A DNA stretch of 64,000 bases. Origin: Fibrobacterota bacterium (GTDB taxonomy: Bacteria > Fibrobacterota > Fibrobacteria > UBA11236). The translations under genes were made by a program, and so were the position numbers. The notes beneath the pieces are model-generated. The model was given only the letters and a program-made list of their open reading frames with translations, was not told the DNA's origin and made no database searches. The stretch lies in NCBI GenBank assembly GCA_947466585.1, contig CANIEU010000002.1, positions 124,001-188,000 on the forward strand, given 5' to 3'. Shown one piece after another: positions 50,301-62,438 of the stretch. The stretch's first letter is position 1, and the number at the start of each line of letters is the position of its first letter.

Positions 50301-50882
50301 ATGAATATCCAAACACCCGAGTTGCTACCTGCACCGGAGCCCGAGCGCGACGCGCCGCCCGCATGCAAATGCCTATTGGCATTGCTTACGGCGACTCCCG
50401 AGTGGGATCCCGAACTGGTAGGGGCCCTTGAAGCGGCATTCGGTTCCATCGATTATCGCAGTCCTTTCGTCGCATTCAGCACATCCGCAGACGAAGGCTA
50501 CTACTCTGCGGAAATGGGCGGCCCGCTGTGGCGTGGGTGGGTGTCCTTTCGGGGGTTTGCGAACCCGCGTGATCTGCCGGCATGGAAACACCGTACGCGC
50601 GCGCTGGAAGAGAGTCGCCGCCGTGACGCACGCCGAACGTGCAACCTCGACATCGGCTACATGGACAGCGACAAGTTGGTGCTTGCGTCCTTCAAACGCG
50701 GGCCTCTCAAGTTGTACCTTGATGCGGGTGTTTGGGGAGACGTGATTTTGGGATATTATCAAGGTGCGTTCCTTCCGGTTCGCCGAACCTTTCCTGACTT
50801 CCAGGACGGGCGCTACGACGGATTTTTGCGCGTCATTCGGGAAAAAATGAAGGCGGCCATGAGAGCAGAGGGGCGAGGATGA
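50301..50882 (+). CDS. DUF4416 family protein
   Basis: RDARRTCNLDIGYMDSDKLVLASFKRGPLKLYLDAGVWGDVILGYYQGAFLPVRRTFPDFQDGRYDGFL matches DUF4416 pattern. Confidence 0.82.
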   Translation: MNIQTPELLPAPEPERDAPPACKCLLALLTATPEWDPELVGALEAAFGSIDYRSPFVAFSTSADEGYYSAEMGGPLWRGWVSFRGFANPRDLPAWKHRTRALEESRRRDARRTCNLDIGYMDSDKLVLASFKRGPLKLYLDAGVWGDVILGYYQGAFLPVRRTFPDFQDGRYDGFLRVIREKMKAAMRAEGRG

Positions 50883-52054
50883 ACGGGATGTTGAAATTTG
50901 GGGCGACCGCCGCGATTGGTGCAGCCTGCTTGTTGCTCACTGCGTGCGGTTCGCTGGTGGACATGGGCAAAAACAAAACCGTCGCCCCCCGGCGGATCTT
51001 TCTAAACGACGTCGCCGCGAACGATTCGCTTCCTTCGACCATGCTCGACAACGGCTTGGTGTTTGTCATGCAACCGGGTGAAAACTACCGTTTGCGTCTG
51101 AAGACCACTGCGCTGACCGACTCGATCGTGTTTTATGCGCGCAATTCGAGCGGAGATTTTACCCCGGTCCGAAACATTGGAGGTGTTGCCGCGGGTGGGA
51201 ACATTCGTTCCTTCACCCTCACGCCGACCAAGACTTCTGCGGAATATTATCTGGCTTTTTTACGGGCGGCGAACGGCGGCACGGCAAGCCTGCCCGACAG
51301 CGTGCGCCTCGTTGCCGCCGATACGACCAGTGCGCCGAGCGTGAAGGTGCGCCTGTTGATGGTGCGCGGATTGTACGGCCTTTCGAACAATACGGCCAAA
51401 GCCGCGTTTGCACGGGCATTTCATACCGAACTGCGTTCGATTTACGCAGCGTATGGCATTACAGTGGACACCTCGACCGTAATCGTCGACACCACCGGTA
51501 AAGCCTTGACCTTGGTTTTCAACGGGGACTTCGTGTCGCTTCCGGGAGAGCGGAAATCCGACGGTATCAACATGTATTTGGTCGACAGCATCCGCAGTGA
51601 AGGCGCCGCAGGCATGGTCGTGGGTTATGCACCCCGTGAGGCCTTTGATCTCGCCCTGAACCCCGAGAGCCGGTTGGTACTTAACGTACGGGGTGGCACC
51701 GCCGCGCAAATGGCCGTAACTGCTGCGCACGAGATGGGGCATTTTATCGGCTTGCGTCACACCAGCGCGACCGAGACCGACCGAAGCTTCGACGACGATG
51801 AAAGCAATCGCGACGACGGATTCTCATCAACACCCTATTGTTCGATTCTGACCAAAAGGGCGGTTCATGAGGAAGTTTTTCAGGCTCCGCGCGGACGGGC
51901 CTATTGTTTGCGTGTGACGGGTACCGCCGCTACGTGCGGCTGCTCGGATGTGACGAACCTGATGTATCCCTATGCCTGCAACCAGGCCGGCCAAAAAACC
52001 CTGGGTGCGGACCAGCAGAAATTCGTCCGCAATAATTTGAGGGTGTTGCAGTAA
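50879..52054 (+). CDS. Lipoprotein with metzincin-type zinc protease motif
   Basis: Lipobox ACLLLTACGS; AHEMGHFIGLRHTS = HExxHxxGxxH; downstream NLMYPYA Met-turn-like. Confidence 0.8.
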   Translation: MNGMLKFGATAAIGAACLLLTACGSLVDMGKNKTVAPRRIFLNDVAANDSLPSTMLDNGLVFVMQPGENYRLRLKTTALTDSIVFYARNSSGDFTPVRNIGGVAAGGNIRSFTLTPTKTSAEYYLAFLRAANGGTASLPDSVRLVAADTTSAPSVKVRLLMVRGLYGLSNNTAKAAFARAFHTELRSIYAAYGITVDTSTVIVDTTGKALTLVFNGDFVSLPGERKSDGINMYLVDSIRSEGAAGMVVGYAPREAFDLALNPESRLVLNVRGGTAAQMAVTAAHEMGHFIGLRHTSATETDRSFDDDESNRDDGFSSTPYCSILTKRAVHEEVFQAPRGRAYCLRVTGTAATCGCSDVTNLMYPYACNQAGQKTLGADQQKFVRNNLRVLQ

Positions 52055-55219: not shown

Positions 55220-56443
55220 ATGAAGGTTTTTACGGTCGGAATGCTGTGTGTGCAAGTGCTGGTTTCGGTGCCGTTTCAAGGCTGGTCCCAGCCGCGTGCC
55301 CCGCTGACGGGGGCGAATGCGGCCTGCAACTCCGGGCCGGTTTTGGCGGGCGGACTGCCCGACACCCTTTCGGGTCCCGAGTTCGTTCCCGATGATTCGG
55401 GGTTCGTGACGATCTTTAACGGAAAAAACCTCAAAGGCTGGTGGGAAGGGTGCGGCAGCACCCACTCCGACCTCGACAAAACGAACGGCGGTATTTGGCT
55501 GGTCGACAGCGCGAACGGGCTCCTGTTCGCGAACCAGAATACGAACGGGGCGGGTAGCGTACTCATGACCAACAAGTCGTACGGAAACTACGAGTTGGTG
55601 TTCGATCTCTGGCCTTCGTTCGGCAACGATGCCGGTGTCTTCAACCGCGTCACGGCCGCAGGAAACTGCTACCAGACGGGTATCGATTACCTCTCCGGCA
55701 GCAGCGTGGGTGGCGTGTACTTCGAGGGCGGATATACGGGCGGCGGCCGCAACGTGGACCCCTACGTGTTCGGCTCCACGCGCACGACCATCACCATAGG
55801 CACGAATTCCAATTCCACAAACCGTCTCGATACCATCACGAAATTGTACGGAACGCCGCTGGATTATGGATGCCCCGCGACCGGGTGCGGCCCGGCCAAC
55901 TGGACCGCCATGTGGGATACGGGCGGCTGGAACCAGATGCGCGTGCAATTTTTCGGCACCGGTGCCTCGGCGTTGAACAAGGTTCACAACTTCGCATGGA
56001 TCCGCAAGCTCGGCGCCTCGAAATGGATTCCCACCGTGCGAGATTCCGTGCAGTTCAACACGCCCGCCAACCCTGTCGGAATTCAAATCCATGGAACCAC
56101 AGCTCAATGGGGAAACCGCAACGGCAATTGGTACCGCAACATCAAGATCCGGCCGCTGACCGACCAAGGCGTCCCCATTCTCGCAACCACCTCGGTGAGA
56201 CGCACGGGCGGTGTTTCACAGCAGGGCACGCTTCGGTTTGCGGCAGGTGTCCTTTCTGGCACGCTGGAACGGCCCTCTGAAATCACCCTGCGCGATGTCG
56301 GAGGTGAGCTGCTAGATCGGATCTCCAGGCCATCGGGGAACTTTCGATATCCCTTGAACTCGATGGCACCCGGAATTCTGTTGATTCAAGTTAAAACGGA
56401 CCAGCGGATCGAGTCCTTCCGGGTTGCTCGAGTATTCGAGTAG
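55220..56443 (+). CDS. Secreted DUF1080 (3-keto-disaccharide hydrolase-like) protein with T9SS-CTD-like C-terminus
   Basis: FVTIFNGKNLKGWW...GGIWLVDSANGLLF...YELVFDLWPSFGNDAGVFNRV; C-term SMAPGILLIQVKTDQRIESFRVARVFE. Confidence 0.82.
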   Translation: MKVFTVGMLCVQVLVSVPFQGWSQPRAPLTGANAACNSGPVLAGGLPDTLSGPEFVPDDSGFVTIFNGKNLKGWWEGCGSTHSDLDKTNGGIWLVDSANGLLFANQNTNGAGSVLMTNKSYGNYELVFDLWPSFGNDAGVFNRVTAAGNCYQTGIDYLSGSSVGGVYFEGGYTGGGRNVDPYVFGSTRTTITIGTNSNSTNRLDTITKLYGTPLDYGCPATGCGPANWTAMWDTGGWNQMRVQFFGTGASALNKVHNFAWIRKLGASKWIPTVRDSVQFNTPANPVGIQIHGTTAQWGNRNGNWYRNIKIRPLTDQGVPILATTSVRRTGGVSQQGTLRFAAGVLSGTLERPSEITLRDVGGELLDRISRPSGNFRYPLNSMAPGILLIQVKTDQRIESFRVARVFE

Positions 56444-56675
56444 GGAATCGAGGCTATTGCGGGGGTGGGCCGGCCTCCGTTCCGAGCGAAATGGGCTATG
56501 TTCCCTTAAAAAATGAATTTCAAGCAGAAAACGATTGATTTTTGAGGACTTCGGCCTAGATTAGCAAGGCTCGAACATCATCGGTCGGACTCGATCGTTC
56601 CGTTGTGGCTTTCGACCCGATTTTATGGCCCAGTTAGAGGCCAATTTTGCGATTACTGTGAAAAAAGGATGAATT

Positions 56676-58034
56676 ATGCAGAAGCAAGTACGCGTCAGCC
56701 CCTCCTTCATCGCCCTGGCGGGCATGGCCCTTTTCGCCGCTGTCGCGTTCGCCCAGCCCACGCTTGCACCCACGCAGACGACCCCCGAAAAGCTCTGTTC
56801 GGTGGATACCGCCGTTTCTTTCCGCACCGACACAGTGGTCACCACCTCGGATGAGAATGGTTTTTACTCGATCTTCAATGGCAAGGATTTCACCGGTTGG
56901 TGGCAGAATTGCATCAGCAGCCATTCCACCGACAAATCCAACGGGGCCATTTGGCGCGTGGACTCGGTTCGAAAGGCGATCTACGCCATGTCGCGCAGCG
57001 GTTCGGGCGGCTTGCTTTCGACCCACAAACGTTATGCACATTACGAACTGATGTTCGAGTGGTGGCCTCAGTACGGCAACGACGGCGGCGTCTTTAACCG
57101 TTACGCGATCACATCATCCTCCAACGTCGCCTCCAACCAGATGGTGCTCGATTACCTCGGCGCTTCTGGTATTTTGAGCTACTACAGCGAGGCCAACTTT
57201 CCGGGCGGCCGCAATGGCCGACCCTGGAGCTATAACTCGGTTTCCACGGGCAGCATTCCGGGTTCCGGCGGTGGCGCGGGAACGGGCGGCACCGCCGACA
57301 TCAACAACTGGACCACATCAAGCAGCCGTCGCAACCTGGTCACGGGATACGGTCCGACCGATATCGGCTGTGCCTCCACGGGTTGCGTAATGGCGGATTA
57401 CAATCGTTTGTGGAATCAGAATGGCTGGATGCAGGTCCGTCAGATCTACTACGGGGGGCTCAGCACGACCCAGCCGACTTCTGTGGCGACGCCCGGCGAC
57501 AAAATTCACGAGTTCACGTTTTTCCGTAAGCATTATCCGCTGGATGACACCTTGCTCACCACGCCGAACCTGGTAGGAGATACCGCGAAATGGGTCACCG
57601 TGGTGCAAGATTCCATGGTGCTGACGGCCACCCAAGTCAATACCTACCAGAAGATCTCGCCCTTCGCTTTTCAGGTGCATGGCGGCAGCCGATATGTTTA
57701 CGCCTCCAACGGAGGAAAAGGATCCTGGTACCGCGACATCAAGGTGCGTGAACTCGACTCGCTTGGTCGCCCCACCTACATCACTACCTCTGTACGTGGC
57801 AATCAAAAGACCCATTACGATATGAAGGTCGTCTCCGGATTTTTGGTGGGTTCGATGAAACTCGACCACATCGTGACCGTCACGAATCTCAAGGGCAGCG
57901 TCTTGCAGGAATACGTCGGCTTTGCCGGATCGGATCTGAAGCGTGAGTTGCCCCGCCGCAACGAAGTCATGGTCGTCCGCATCAAAACGAGCCAAGGCAC
58001 GTACACGCTGCGCGCCAACCCCCTCGCTCAGTAA
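56676..58034 (+). CDS. Secreted DUF1080 paralog
   Basis: FYSIFNGKDFTGWWQNC...GAIWRVDSVRKAIYA...YELMFEWWPQYGNDGGVFNRY; C-term NEVMVVRIKTSQGTYTLRANPLAQ. Confidence 0.82.
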   Translation: MQKQVRVSPSFIALAGMALFAAVAFAQPTLAPTQTTPEKLCSVDTAVSFRTDTVVTTSDENGFYSIFNGKDFTGWWQNCISSHSTDKSNGAIWRVDSVRKAIYAMSRSGSGGLLSTHKRYAHYELMFEWWPQYGNDGGVFNRYAITSSSNVASNQMVLDYLGASGILSYYSEANFPGGRNGRPWSYNSVSTGSIPGSGGGAGTGGTADINNWTTSSSRRNLVTGYGPTDIGCASTGCVMADYNRLWNQNGWMQVRQIYYGGLSTTQPTSVATPGDKIHEFTFFRKHYPLDDTLLTTPNLVGDTAKWVTVVQDSMVLTATQVNTYQKISPFAFQVHGGSRYVYASNGGKGSWYRDIKVRELDSLGRPTYITTSVRGNQKTHYDMKVVSGFLVGSMKLDHIVTVTNLKGSVLQEYVGFAGSDLKRELPRRNEVMVVRIKTSQGTYTLRANPLAQ

Positions 58035-58047
58035 TTCCGTGCGTCAA

Positions 58048-59439
58048 ATGCATCTTCATCTGCCGATGACTGCAGGCGCCACGATAGGCGCCTTGTTGCT
58101 CCTCGCGTCCGCAGTAGCCGGCGAGCCTGTGAAATATCGGCTTCAAGGTCAGGGCTGGACCCAGGCGGGGCGCATCATGCGTGCCACCGATTCCCTCAGC
58201 GGAAATGATGTGAACAAGGTGGGGGGGACCTCTGTGCAAAGCCTCGGTGGACAGATCGTGGTGTCGGCTGATCTGGATGACCATTGGGATGCGAATTTCG
58301 GAGTGGGCGTCTACCAGTTGTCCACGTCGCTTGGAACCCAGAATCAATCGACCTACGAGCCCAACTTCCTGAACGCCACGATGTTTCGCGCCTACATCGC
58401 CCAAGCGAACCTCACTTATTCGCTGGGTGCGAAATCAAATCCGTGGTTCAGTGTGACGGCGGGCAATTTCGCCTACGATTACAACCCAGACGTGAAAAAT
58501 CTTGGGCTCTATATGTTGCGGGGGCCCGTTTACCCCGGCTTGCTGATGTCCGGTTTCGAAGAATTCGATACGGATAGCACAAAAGGGATCCAAACCGGCT
58601 TCAAGGTCCACCTCTCAATGGGTAACTTCACCCAGGACGTGCTGCTGCTGAACGAGCGTATTTTGCCGCCGCTATTCGACTGGAGCCTGGCCTATGCGGC
58701 CAAGTACCGATCCTTCGGTGCCCTCGATGTCGGCGGAGGTGTGAATTTTTACCGTATTGTTCCCAACAGCAAGCCACTCGAAACGCCGGGCCACCTGAAT
58801 GCGAATAGTCTTACCGCGACCAATTATTACGAGGTCGGTTCAGGTGGCGACACCACCTTCTTCACGCATCAAGGCGTGAAACTCATGGCAATGTTCAGCT
58901 TCGATCCCAAGCGCTGGATTGCATTCTCCGACATACTCGGCGCCGAAGATCTGAAAATCTATGGAGAGGTCGCGGTATTGGGCCTTAAAAATTACGGCAC
59001 CTATTACGACGACGTCAAAGAACGCATTCCGGTGATGGTTGGGTTCAATGTGCCCACCTTTGGAATCCTTGACGTATTCTCTCTCGAAGTGGAATACTAC
59101 GCCTCTCCCTTTAAAAACGATCTTGGCAACATTGGCAACCCCAACGCAATTGTTGCGCCGTGGATGTGGCAGAATGCGTTGACGCCGATCGCCTCTCCGG
59201 GTCCAGTCTCACCCGGCGCTTACGCCGATTCCACGGCTGACAACTGGAAATGGTCGGTATTTGCTCGCAAAACCGTTGCTAAGCATATTCAGTTTACAGC
59301 CCAGATCGCCAACGACCATACCCGTCCCGCTCCGCTGGTCAACTCCGCGGCGGGCATCGGCACCACCGGCGGCACTTCCGCCGTGTTGACCTCACCCAAA
59401 GACTGGTACTTCATGGGCCGGGTAGGATTCCTCTTCTGA
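58048..59439 (+). CDS. Outer-membrane beta-barrel (porin-like) protein, paralog 1
   Basis: Signal peptide; YRLQGQGWTQAGRI; FAYDYNPDVKNLGLYMLRGPVYPGLLMSGFE; ends WYFMGRVGFLF (terminal Phe). Confidence 0.75.
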   Translation: MHLHLPMTAGATIGALLLLASAVAGEPVKYRLQGQGWTQAGRIMRATDSLSGNDVNKVGGTSVQSLGGQIVVSADLDDHWDANFGVGVYQLSTSLGTQNQSTYEPNFLNATMFRAYIAQANLTYSLGAKSNPWFSVTAGNFAYDYNPDVKNLGLYMLRGPVYPGLLMSGFEEFDTDSTKGIQTGFKVHLSMGNFTQDVLLLNERILPPLFDWSLAYAAKYRSFGALDVGGGVNFYRIVPNSKPLETPGHLNANSLTATNYYEVGSGGDTTFFTHQGVKLMAMFSFDPKRWIAFSDILGAEDLKIYGEVAVLGLKNYGTYYDDVKERIPVMVGFNVPTFGILDVFSLEVEYYASPFKNDLGNIGNPNAIVAPWMWQNALTPIASPGPVSPGAYADSTADNWKWSVFARKTVAKHIQFTAQIANDHTRPAPLVNSAAGIGTTGGTSAVLTSPKDWYFMGRVGFLF

Positions 59440-60731
59440 TGCGCCGCCTTACCTACATCCCGACCTTATTGATCGTGTTCGCAACGTTGTCTTCCACGGC
59501 CTCGGCCCAAGAATCCGAACTGCGCCTCAGCGGTGCCGGATGGACCCAGATCGGTCGCATCGAACAAAGCTTCGTCGGCACCGATCAGAGCAACAATTAC
59601 AACGACAACTGGATGCAAAATGCTGGTGGGCAACTTACCCTGAACGCCACCTTCGATCCCGCCTGGGATGGCGCCCTTGCATTGGGTGTGGTGGGCACGC
59701 ATCTCGCCCGTGGAGCCGTCAGTGAAATCGATCACTGGTACCCGTTCTGGGTGGCCTACGTCGGTGAAGCGCGCGTTTCCTATCACAACAAGGTCTCGGA
59801 ATCCGGGACCTTCCGAATGTCGCTCGGCCTGTTTCCATATAATTATAGTCCGGATGCAAAGAACCTCGGCGTTTACCTGACCCGCGGTTACGTCTATCCC
59901 GGAACACTCGAATCCGGATTCGGAAACGTGTTCGGCGGACAGGCACGTTATGAACAAGGCGGATTCAGCAATGATTTCGTGGTGAAATCCGAAGATCAGA
60001 AACCGATTTATGATCTGTCGGTTCTAGACGTGGTCAACTATCAGGTAGTTCCGGGATTCGAGGTCGGTGCGGGCGTGAATTTTTACCGTGTCGTCGCCCA
60101 GAATTCGGGCTTGACCACACCGGGCCAGGTTTGTGGCGGGAATTACGGACAGTGTTCCTATGTCGATACCACGGGTGGTAAATCCGACACCGTGACCGGC
60201 TCGCTTTCCGGAACCAAACTGATGGCACGATTCCATTTCGACCCCAAGGTGGTGTTCGGGATCGAGAAGGTCGGATCCCTGACGCTGGGCAAACAGGATC
60301 TGGTTCTCTACGGCGAAGGCGCTCTGATCGGCGTCAAGAACTACCCAATTTATCTCGACGAGCCGCTGCGCCGCATGCCGGTCATGCTCGGTCTCAATCT
60401 TCCGGCCTTCAATCAGCTCGATTTCCTATCAATCGAAGTAGAATACTATGCCTCCAAGAATTCGAGCAACAATGTCGGAGCCGCCTTCGGTGGTGCTTGG
60501 GTGCCCGATTTCAAGGATGATGCCGATGTGGCGAATTATGCCGGTCGCGATGATTGGAAATGGTCATTGAACCTGGCCAAGACCTTCTTCGGTCACGCCC
60601 AGATTTCGGGACAGGTTGCGAACGACCACTTGCGACCCGGTGGCTCGCATGATATCCCCTGGGTTGGCAAAGAAGCCCTGCGCCGCCCGAGCGACTGGTA
60701 CTGGACATGCAAGCTCGCTTACTTCTTTTAG
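59439..60731 (+). CDS. Outer-membrane beta-barrel (porin-like) protein, paralog 2
   Basis: LRLSGAGWTQIGRI; FPYNYSPDAKNLGVYLTRGYVYPGTLESGFG; ends WYWTCKLAYFF; 1-nt overlap with upstream gene. Confidence 0.75.
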   Translation: MRRLTYIPTLLIVFATLSSTASAQESELRLSGAGWTQIGRIEQSFVGTDQSNNYNDNWMQNAGGQLTLNATFDPAWDGALALGVVGTHLARGAVSEIDHWYPFWVAYVGEARVSYHNKVSESGTFRMSLGLFPYNYSPDAKNLGVYLTRGYVYPGTLESGFGNVFGGQARYEQGGFSNDFVVKSEDQKPIYDLSVLDVVNYQVVPGFEVGAGVNFYRVVAQNSGLTTPGQVCGGNYGQCSYVDTTGGKSDTVTGSLSGTKLMARFHFDPKVVFGIEKVGSLTLGKQDLVLYGEGALIGVKNYPIYLDEPLRRMPVMLGLNLPAFNQLDFLSIEVEYYASKNSSNNVGAAFGGAWVPDFKDDADVANYAGRDDWKWSLNLAKTFFGHAQISGQVANDHLRPGGSHDIPWVGKEALRRPSDWYWTCKLAYFF

Positions 60732-60745
60732 GAATCCGGGAAGTC

Positions 60746-62167
60746 ATGAAATCCTTCACTAACTCCCGCCTTTCTTCAGCGTTCCCCCTCCTGAGCGTTG
60801 TCGCGGGTTTGCTTTGCTGCACGGCATCGTCGGTATTCGCCCAGCAACTGCCCGAAGGGATCTCGTTGCACGCTGCCGGTTGGATTCAACTCAGCCGCAT
60901 CGGCAACAGTTCCGATACCGTGATATATACGGGCTTCCATAAAGGGGCCTTCGACGGGCAGACCGTTCTTTCTCCTGGCGCGCAAATCGAACTCGATGCA
61001 CGCCTGTCGGAACGTTTGAACATCGCCACTGGAATCGGAGTTGTGGCCGGCAATAGTCTCGCCGTGGGCCCCCTCGGTACGAATGGCGGTTATGCCTTGC
61101 CGGGAGCTTATTCGTACGTCTCCAATGCACATTTCACTTACATCTTCGCAAACGCTGCAACCTCCAACCTGGCGCTCTCAGGCGGCCTGTTTCCCTACAG
61201 CTACAATCCGGATGTCAAGAACCTGGGCTTGTACTTGCTGCGCGGGCCGGTTTACCCGGGAATTCTGATCTCGGGCTTCGAAACCAAGCATACCCTGACG
61301 GTGGCGAACATGCTCGGGTTGCAGCTGCATCATCGGGTAGGCAACTTTCAGCAGGATTTTTTACTCTCCAGCGAAATGGAGTACTATCCGTTCTTTGATC
61401 TGTCGCCCGCCTACGTGGCGAGTTACCTGGCGCACCCGTCGCTGCGCCTCGGCGCGGGCGTAAACTTTTATCATCTGATTCCCGCCGATGGCAAACTTAC
61501 TGGCGGGCGGCGTTCCGACAACCAGACCAACTGGTTCTACAGGGATACGACGGGCGTTGGAGCGGGGGGGCAACCTGATACCACCAATCTTGGTTACAAC
61601 GGCACCAAGTTGATGGCCAACGCCTCGTTCGATCCAAAGCTTTTTTTCGGTAGCGCAAGCTGGCTCGGTCCCGAAGATTTGAAGCTCTATGGTGAGGTCG
61701 CCCTGATCGGCCTCGACCGCAGCAAGGCCTATCGCAAGGTTTACGGTGATTACAGCAAACGCATGCCGGTGATGGTCGGATTCAACGTGCCGACCTTTAA
61801 GGTGCTTGACGAATTGTCGGTCGAAATGGAGTGGTACGGTTCCGAGGCTGAGGACAATCTCGACAACTACACCATTCAGGGTTCCTCTCATCCTGCGTCA
61901 CCCTATCCCACCAACTGGGATCAAAATACCTCCTCGTCGACCTTCAACCAGCTGACGCACAAAGACACCCGGGATAATTGGAAGTGGTCGTTGCATGCTT
62001 CCCTCAAGCTCGATACCCATGTTCAATTCAGCTTCCAAGTTGCGAACGATCATTACCGCCCGGGCGTTTATCACGGTTACGGTGACTCGAACCCGCCGTA
62101 TCAGGGCTCAGTGATGGTTACCCCCAAGGATTGGTACCTCACCACCAAGCTTGCGTATTTCTTTTAG
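60746..62167 (+). CDS. Outer-membrane beta-barrel (porin-like) protein, paralog 3
   Basis: ISLHAAGWIQLSRI; FPYSYNPDVKNLGLYLLRGPVYPGILISGFE; ends WYLTTKLAYFF. Confidence 0.75.
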   Translation: MKSFTNSRLSSAFPLLSVVAGLLCCTASSVFAQQLPEGISLHAAGWIQLSRIGNSSDTVIYTGFHKGAFDGQTVLSPGAQIELDARLSERLNIATGIGVVAGNSLAVGPLGTNGGYALPGAYSYVSNAHFTYIFANAATSNLALSGGLFPYSYNPDVKNLGLYLLRGPVYPGILISGFETKHTLTVANMLGLQLHHRVGNFQQDFLLSSEMEYYPFFDLSPAYVASYLAHPSLRLGAGVNFYHLIPADGKLTGGRRSDNQTNWFYRDTTGVGAGGQPDTTNLGYNGTKLMANASFDPKLFFGSASWLGPEDLKLYGEVALIGLDRSKAYRKVYGDYSKRMPVMVGFNVPTFKVLDELSVEMEWYGSEAEDNLDNYTIQGSSHPASPYPTNWDQNTSSSTFNQLTHKDTRDNWKWSLHASLKLDTHVQFSFQVANDHYRPGVYHGYGDSNPPYQGSVMVTPKDWYLTTKLAYFF

Positions 62168-62176
62168 TCGGCCAAC

Positions 62177-62251
62177 ATGAAAATCTGGATACTGCTCGTT
62201 GCCCTGATCGTCCTGCTGGCACTGGCCGTTTGGCTCCCGAACTTTCTCTGA
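62177..62251 (+). CDS. Candidate 24-aa single-TM microprotein MKIWILLVALIVLLALAVWLPNFL
   Basis: ATG..TGA ORF between last barrel gene and terminator; too short for the ORF track; strongly hydrophobic. Confidence 0.45.
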   Translation: MKIWILLVALIVLLALAVWLPNFL

Positions 62252-62269
62252 TACTGGAGACCGAAAAAA

Positions 62270-62299
62270 AGCCCCGCCCGAAGTTCTTCGGGCGGGGCT
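62270..62299. terminator. Strong Rho-independent terminator of the DUF1080/OMP locus
   Basis: AGCCCCGCCCGAAG-TT-CTTCGGGCGGGGCT, A-tract upstream and TTTTT downstream. Confidence 0.92.
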
Positions 62300-62438
62300 T
62301 TTTTGTTTGAACCAGATCATGATAGTGAAATCGACGAAGCAACTCGCCGCAGCCTAGACTGCGAGAGAAACTCGATCTGTCGCGGAATTTTTCAGGAGGG
62401 GCGCGTTTTGCGCCCGTGTTTCTAGGGCGGAGACCGGG

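Follow-up and report, generated by a model that had tools for sequence, protein, structure and literature searches.

The locus studied here, part of a 64,000-nt stretch of Fibrobacterota DNA (the window), raises the question of whether two secreted DUF1080 proteins and the three outer-membrane barrels encoded behind them form a glycan-handling system, and what kind of barrel is involved. An earlier note, made from the sequence of the window, had proposed a surface capture or uptake system with a barrel family that it did not recognise. Its description of the genes holds. All five are present in the order given (Table 1), and both DUF1080 proteins are members of PF06439, with 55.7 and 33.1 bits against a curated cut-off of 26.8. 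Profile searches of the five genes confirm that the locus has no SusC, SusD or TonB receptor. The short junctions ascribed to the set are found among the last four genes (4 nt, a 1-nt overlap of the form TGATG, and 14 nt), but not at DUF1080-1, which is separated from DUF1080-2 by 232 nt. These distances refer to the starts given in Table 1; the mechanical open reading frames begin at 57943 for barrel 1 and at 60707 for barrel 3.

Table 1. Features of the locus, in positions of the window.
Feature	Position	Strand	Evidence
DUF1080-1, secreted, PF06439, C-terminal beta domain	55220..56443	+	Pfam E 8.3e-15, residues 61-311
DUF1080-2, secreted	56676..58034	+	Pfam E 7.5e-8; identities in alignment A7; AF2 model
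Barrel 1 of the trio, GTG start	58039..59439	+	orthologs at equal position in relatives
Barrel 2 of the trio	59439..60731	+	model with 16 long strands, pLDDT 92.6, pTM 0.89
Conserved motif of barrel 2, residues ~135-162	59841..59924	+	strand list and conserved columns
Barrel 3 of the trio, ATG start	60746..62167	+	motif, terminal F, barrel tree
Rho-independent terminator, end of the set	~62265..62304	+	fold -34 kcal/mol, z -5.7

The strong terminator claimed for the end of the set is also there, none of 200 shuffled sequences folding as well. It was missed by a simple terminator scan, probably because its A/T runs pair mutually. Between barrel 3 and the terminator there is a possible hydrophobic ORF of 24 aa at 62177-62251 (+) (MKIWILLVALIVLLALAVWLPNFL), which is not conserved and has no counterpart after the trios of relatives. 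Upstream of the locus, at 50879-52054 (+), a secreted lipoprotein-like protein shows weak matches to M12/M43 metallopeptidases and carries the zinc motif HEMGHFIGLRH.

The three barrels are 38-41% identical to each other, and all of them contain the motif Y[NS]PD[VA]KNLG[LV]Y..RG.VYPG.L.SGF and the terminal phenylalanine that had been pointed out before. A known family was sought for them and rejected: none of 96 members has a convincing match in Pfam, where only weak, chance-level matches were obtained, and NCBIfam and the PDB sequences gave no convincing match either. The genome from which the window comes (2.24 Mb in 28 contigs) encodes 12 such barrels at seven loci. When the genomes of 84,980 species were scanned with two barrel peptide patterns, 74 loci were found, all of them in sequences titled as Fibrobacterota lineages except for four contigs of one bacterium (AM_1606), which falls among the Fibrobacterota in the tree. 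The barrels occur in several families of the phylum, frequently in many copies. Fibrobacteraceae have only remote relatives of ca 340 residues; those at L138, L139 and L142 match the second half of the family weakly and are perhaps its counterpart in rumen Fibrobacter.

The AlphaFold model of barrel 2 has no plug domain and, like a porin, connects most of its strands by alternating short turns and long loops. With 16 strands, a C-terminal aromatic residue and an N-terminal signal, the protein as modelled has the features of a 16-strand porin. The best PDB matches found by Foldseek are OmpM1, the OmpF/OmpC group, AlgE and OprB, with query-normalised TM-scores up to 0.49 at ca 11% identity. On the basis of this model, the fold class can be considered fairly safe, but not the pore size or the function. 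The resemblance to these general and sugar porins extends to the tight periplasmic turns, the long loop between strands 5 and 6 and the terminal Phe, whereas the low identity, the lack of a convincing match to any Pfam porin and, relative to OmpF, an additional 90-150 residues set the family apart. A further difference is that the barrels sit in enzyme-linked loci as sets of unlike subunits. In classical porins, loop L3 folds into the pore and constricts it. The conserved motif of barrel 2 occupies this position, between strands 5 and 6, and by analogy it may fold into the pore in the same way. Since the barrel as modelled is a 16-strand porin lacking a plug, the capture suggested in the earlier note is more likely to be the task of the enzymes.

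The neighbours of the barrels provide the link to sugars. In the genome of the window, all seven barrel loci adjoin a secreted DUF1080 or ThuA protein: DUF1080 at the window locus (C2), C16 and C20, and ThuA at C4, C5, C10 and C19, each ThuA having a C-terminal domain that resembles a type IX tail. The ThuA assignment at C10 lies below the Pfam cut-off (E 1.5e-5), and the ThuA gene at C19 is in divergent orientation. Six further DUF1080 or ThuA genes of this genome lie apart from barrels. In four genomes (G000, G001, G002 and G004), 34 of the 42 barrel clusters have a DUF1080 or ThuA gene within 3.5 kb, where 5.5-7.1% per cluster is expected under uniform placement (binomial P ~5e-32, shared ancestry being ignored). 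About one fifth of the clusters have neither nearby, some of these being located at contig ends. In the wider set, DUF1080 and ThuA proteins make up 37 of 107 adjacent genes on the same strand, compared to 10 of 316 distal ones (Fisher P 2.5e-16). The co-occurrence of barrels with DUF1080 that the earlier note had put forward as a check is therefore strong, and the glycan link is supported far beyond one locus; neither a known porin family nor a lack of co-occurrence, the findings named as speaking against that link, was obtained.

DUF1080 is one partner class of several, beside ThuA and many glycoside hydrolases. Of the remaining 70 adjacent genes, at least 16 match glycoside hydrolases among the 25 families listed, as does at least one of 70 distal control genes, namely the GH2 enzyme at L107:2688-4955; the other 69 distal genes gave no glycoside hydrolase among the 25 families listed for them. 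In deeper Fibrobacterota lineages the partners are different but still related to carbohydrates and include GH2, GH27, GH30, GH31, GH39, GH43 with CBM6, a GH59-like protein and malectin, according to 20 hand-picked proteins. Many of the genes beside barrels in Chitinispirillia lack a functional assignment. In that class, a protein of ca 275 aa without a Pfam match, a beta-propeller protein of ca 630 aa with a cytochrome c-like C-terminal end and one barrel recur together (L125:4409-7125, L106, L099, L136 and L084), and this set is possibly a separate oxidative uptake unit. At L120:7810-9486, a gingipain-like C25 peptidase, a member of a type IX-linked family, precedes a barrel trio in place of a sugar enzyme.

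The type of partner is followed by the barrels themselves. Over the barrel tree, the partner class (DUF1080, ThuA or other) changes 11 times, compared to 73.7 times with shuffled labels, a difference that is inflated by neighbouring copies, and in the tree of 77 rows all ThuA-linked barrels form one clade. The labels were assigned with profiles lacking the last 90 residues; the full-length ThuA profile matched type IX tails.

The two DUF1080 proteins of the window are 33% identical. DUF1080-1 resembles the protein that precedes the second barrel trio in relatives (for example L064:14283-15497, alignment A7), while DUF1080-2 is the ortholog of the one upstream of the first trio, with 71% identity to L064:8537-9889. 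As the relatives frequently have the order DUF1080, trio, DUF1080, trio, the window locus seems to have retained both DUF1080 genes but one trio. Searched by profile against solved structures, the window proteins match 4jqt (BT3469; E 1.8e-36) and, both of them, the 3-keto-glycoside eliminase/hydratase 9fbe (E 1.1e-26). The AF2 model of DUF1080-2 (pLDDT 81) leads to the same structures in Foldseek, with BT3469 closest (E 6.7e-11) and 9fbe at rank 4, both at low TM-scores. Among the family members are BT2157, a 3-ketotrehalose hydrolase, and CCNA_01705, for which 3'-ketolactose hydrolase activity has been proposed (PMC9007349). Two barrel clusters of G001 have Gfo/Idh/MocA oxidoreductases at distances of 122 and 411 bp, and another such gene adjoins a DUF1080 gene in G000. 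Oxidoreductases of this type are able to make 3-keto sugars, and ThuA is also tied to 3-keto disaccharides. The loci are thus similar to the 3-keto-glycoside pathway in their PF06439 members and in the co-occurrence of ThuA and oxidoreductases with the barrels. They differ from it in that the trio-linked DUF1080 proteins have an extra C-terminal beta domain and the sequence LQ[VI]HG, or a close variant, instead of the LQDHG of other members. BT3469 has one domain of each kind, the first being LQVH. From this substitution, the trio-linked proteins might bind their ligand instead of cleaving it.

Regarding export, SprA, a protein of the type IX translocon, is present. Among 60 aligned partner tails, 23 have a match to Por_Secre_tail (E<=0.1), while the tails of the window DUF1080 proteins, taken individually, do not match it. 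Some glycoside-hydrolase partners in other Fibrobacterota carry type IX secretion tails as well. We infer that the window DUF1080 proteins are exported by this route.

Taken together, we consider it probable that the barrels are passive 16-strand sugar porins of the outer membrane, specific to Fibrobacterota, and that each locus pairs a carbohydrate-active protein with one or more porins that admit its products to the periplasm. In such a scheme, the carbohydrate-active protein would be exported to the surface or secreted by the type IX system, the sugar would be cleaved at the cell surface, and the products would then pass through the neighbouring pore. In the window, two DUF1080 proteins that would either cleave or bind 3-keto-glycosides would be served by three porins. 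The barrels probably bring the sugars released by the enzymes into the cell.

Another option is that the barrels hold the enzyme rather than pass the sugar and serve type IX cargo as docking or shuttle proteins, similar to PorV or to a surface anchor. The type IX-like tails on many partners, the agreement between barrel clades and partner class and the presence of one barrel set per exported protein could all be explained in this way. However, the best 50 fold matches contain 16-strand diffusion porins and no protein of the FadL/PorV type, conservation is highest where porins have the pore-constriction loop, and the partners are largely related to carbohydrates and not a cross-section of exported proteins, all of which makes docking unlikely. 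One could also imagine that the barrels are general porins whose place beside sugar genes is incidental, with the trio as a redundant gene amplification. This would fit the general-porin fold and the many copies per genome, but it is hard to reconcile with a barrel tree that tracks partner class or with the trios, which are old and conserved in position and go back to three independent triplications (see below), and we regard it as quite improbable. Least probable, by a little, is that the barrels belong to the PopA superfamily of lipid-trapping radial oligomers, that is, plugged 16-strand barrels forming tetramers to hexamers and not open pores: 16-strand porin-like members are known from Fibrobacter, where FSU_2404 and FSU_0230 of F. 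succinogenes are highly expressed in vesicle formation and cellulose degradation (PMC12228718), but no PDB sequence matches the barrels, no PopA entry is among the best 50 fold matches, the conservation is concentrated in loop 3 whereas the hallmark of the PopA oligomer is loop 8, and the tandem runs end at three genes.

The number of barrels at a locus follows a pattern. Complete tandem runs consist of one gene in 34 cases, of two in 18 and of three in 23, and never of four or more; longer arrays have the form trio, DUF1080, trio. The best match of a trio member lies at the equal position of a different locus in 73 of 75 cases, and within its own locus in only one. The trios fall into three clades (SH-aLRT 100, 100 and 99), one with the DUF1080-linked trios of Fibrobacteria, one with the Chitinispirillaceae trios, which are mostly linked to GH31, and one with the Chitinivibrionales trios; inside each clade, positions 1, 2 and 3 separate. 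In the AU test, descent of all trios from one ancient triplication is rejected (p 7e-72). The two results together indicate at least three independent triplications; as judged from the tree, three-gene sets arose at least three times and were retained as three distinct genes.

Such multi-gene sets look like subunits. Porins of the 16-strand fold are typically trimers, and for this reason the three porin genes at one locus probably, by analogy, encode one heterotrimer, which would most simply explain why three distinct genes were retained. A more far-reaching and still tentative proposal, which we hold to be somewhat less probable than its opposite, is that the barrels as a whole are dedicated hetero-oligomeric sugar porins. 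One to three different 16-strand subunits would then form homo- or heterotrimers adapted to the surface enzyme encoded beside them, obligate heterotrimers would have evolved at least three times, and the family would represent a counterpart of SusC/D that is independent of TonB and has a separate origin.

The comparison with the SusC/SusD loci of Bacteroidota is instructive in this respect. Both systems have many paralogous outer-membrane proteins per genome beside secreted glycan-active proteins, and type IX secretion in the same cell. In contrast to the C/D pair, the loci described here have one to three paralogous 16-strand barrels of 430-500 aa and neither a TonB plug nor SusD. In the genome of the window there are only two TonB-receptor plugs compared to the 12 barrels, and neither is near a barrel. 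The best reading is that the arrangement works like a polysaccharide utilisation locus without being a SusC/D system, of which it would be a passive analogue. No account of these barrel-enzyme loci was found in the literature, most subscription journals lying outside the search; the porin-enzyme arrangement is real, recurrent and, within the literature searched, undescribed.

In proteomics of F. succinogenes, the mechanism of cellodextrin transport was called unknown, and no MalA-like barrel was found (PMC6851124). The present barrel family provides concrete candidates for oligosaccharide uptake in much of Fibrobacterota, Fibrobacter itself being excluded, as it has only the remote and shorter relative. 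As a genomic marker, the barrel would also allow unknown polysaccharide loci to be found. If the proposal of an obligate porin built from three different subunits is true, this would be unusual in outer-membrane biology.
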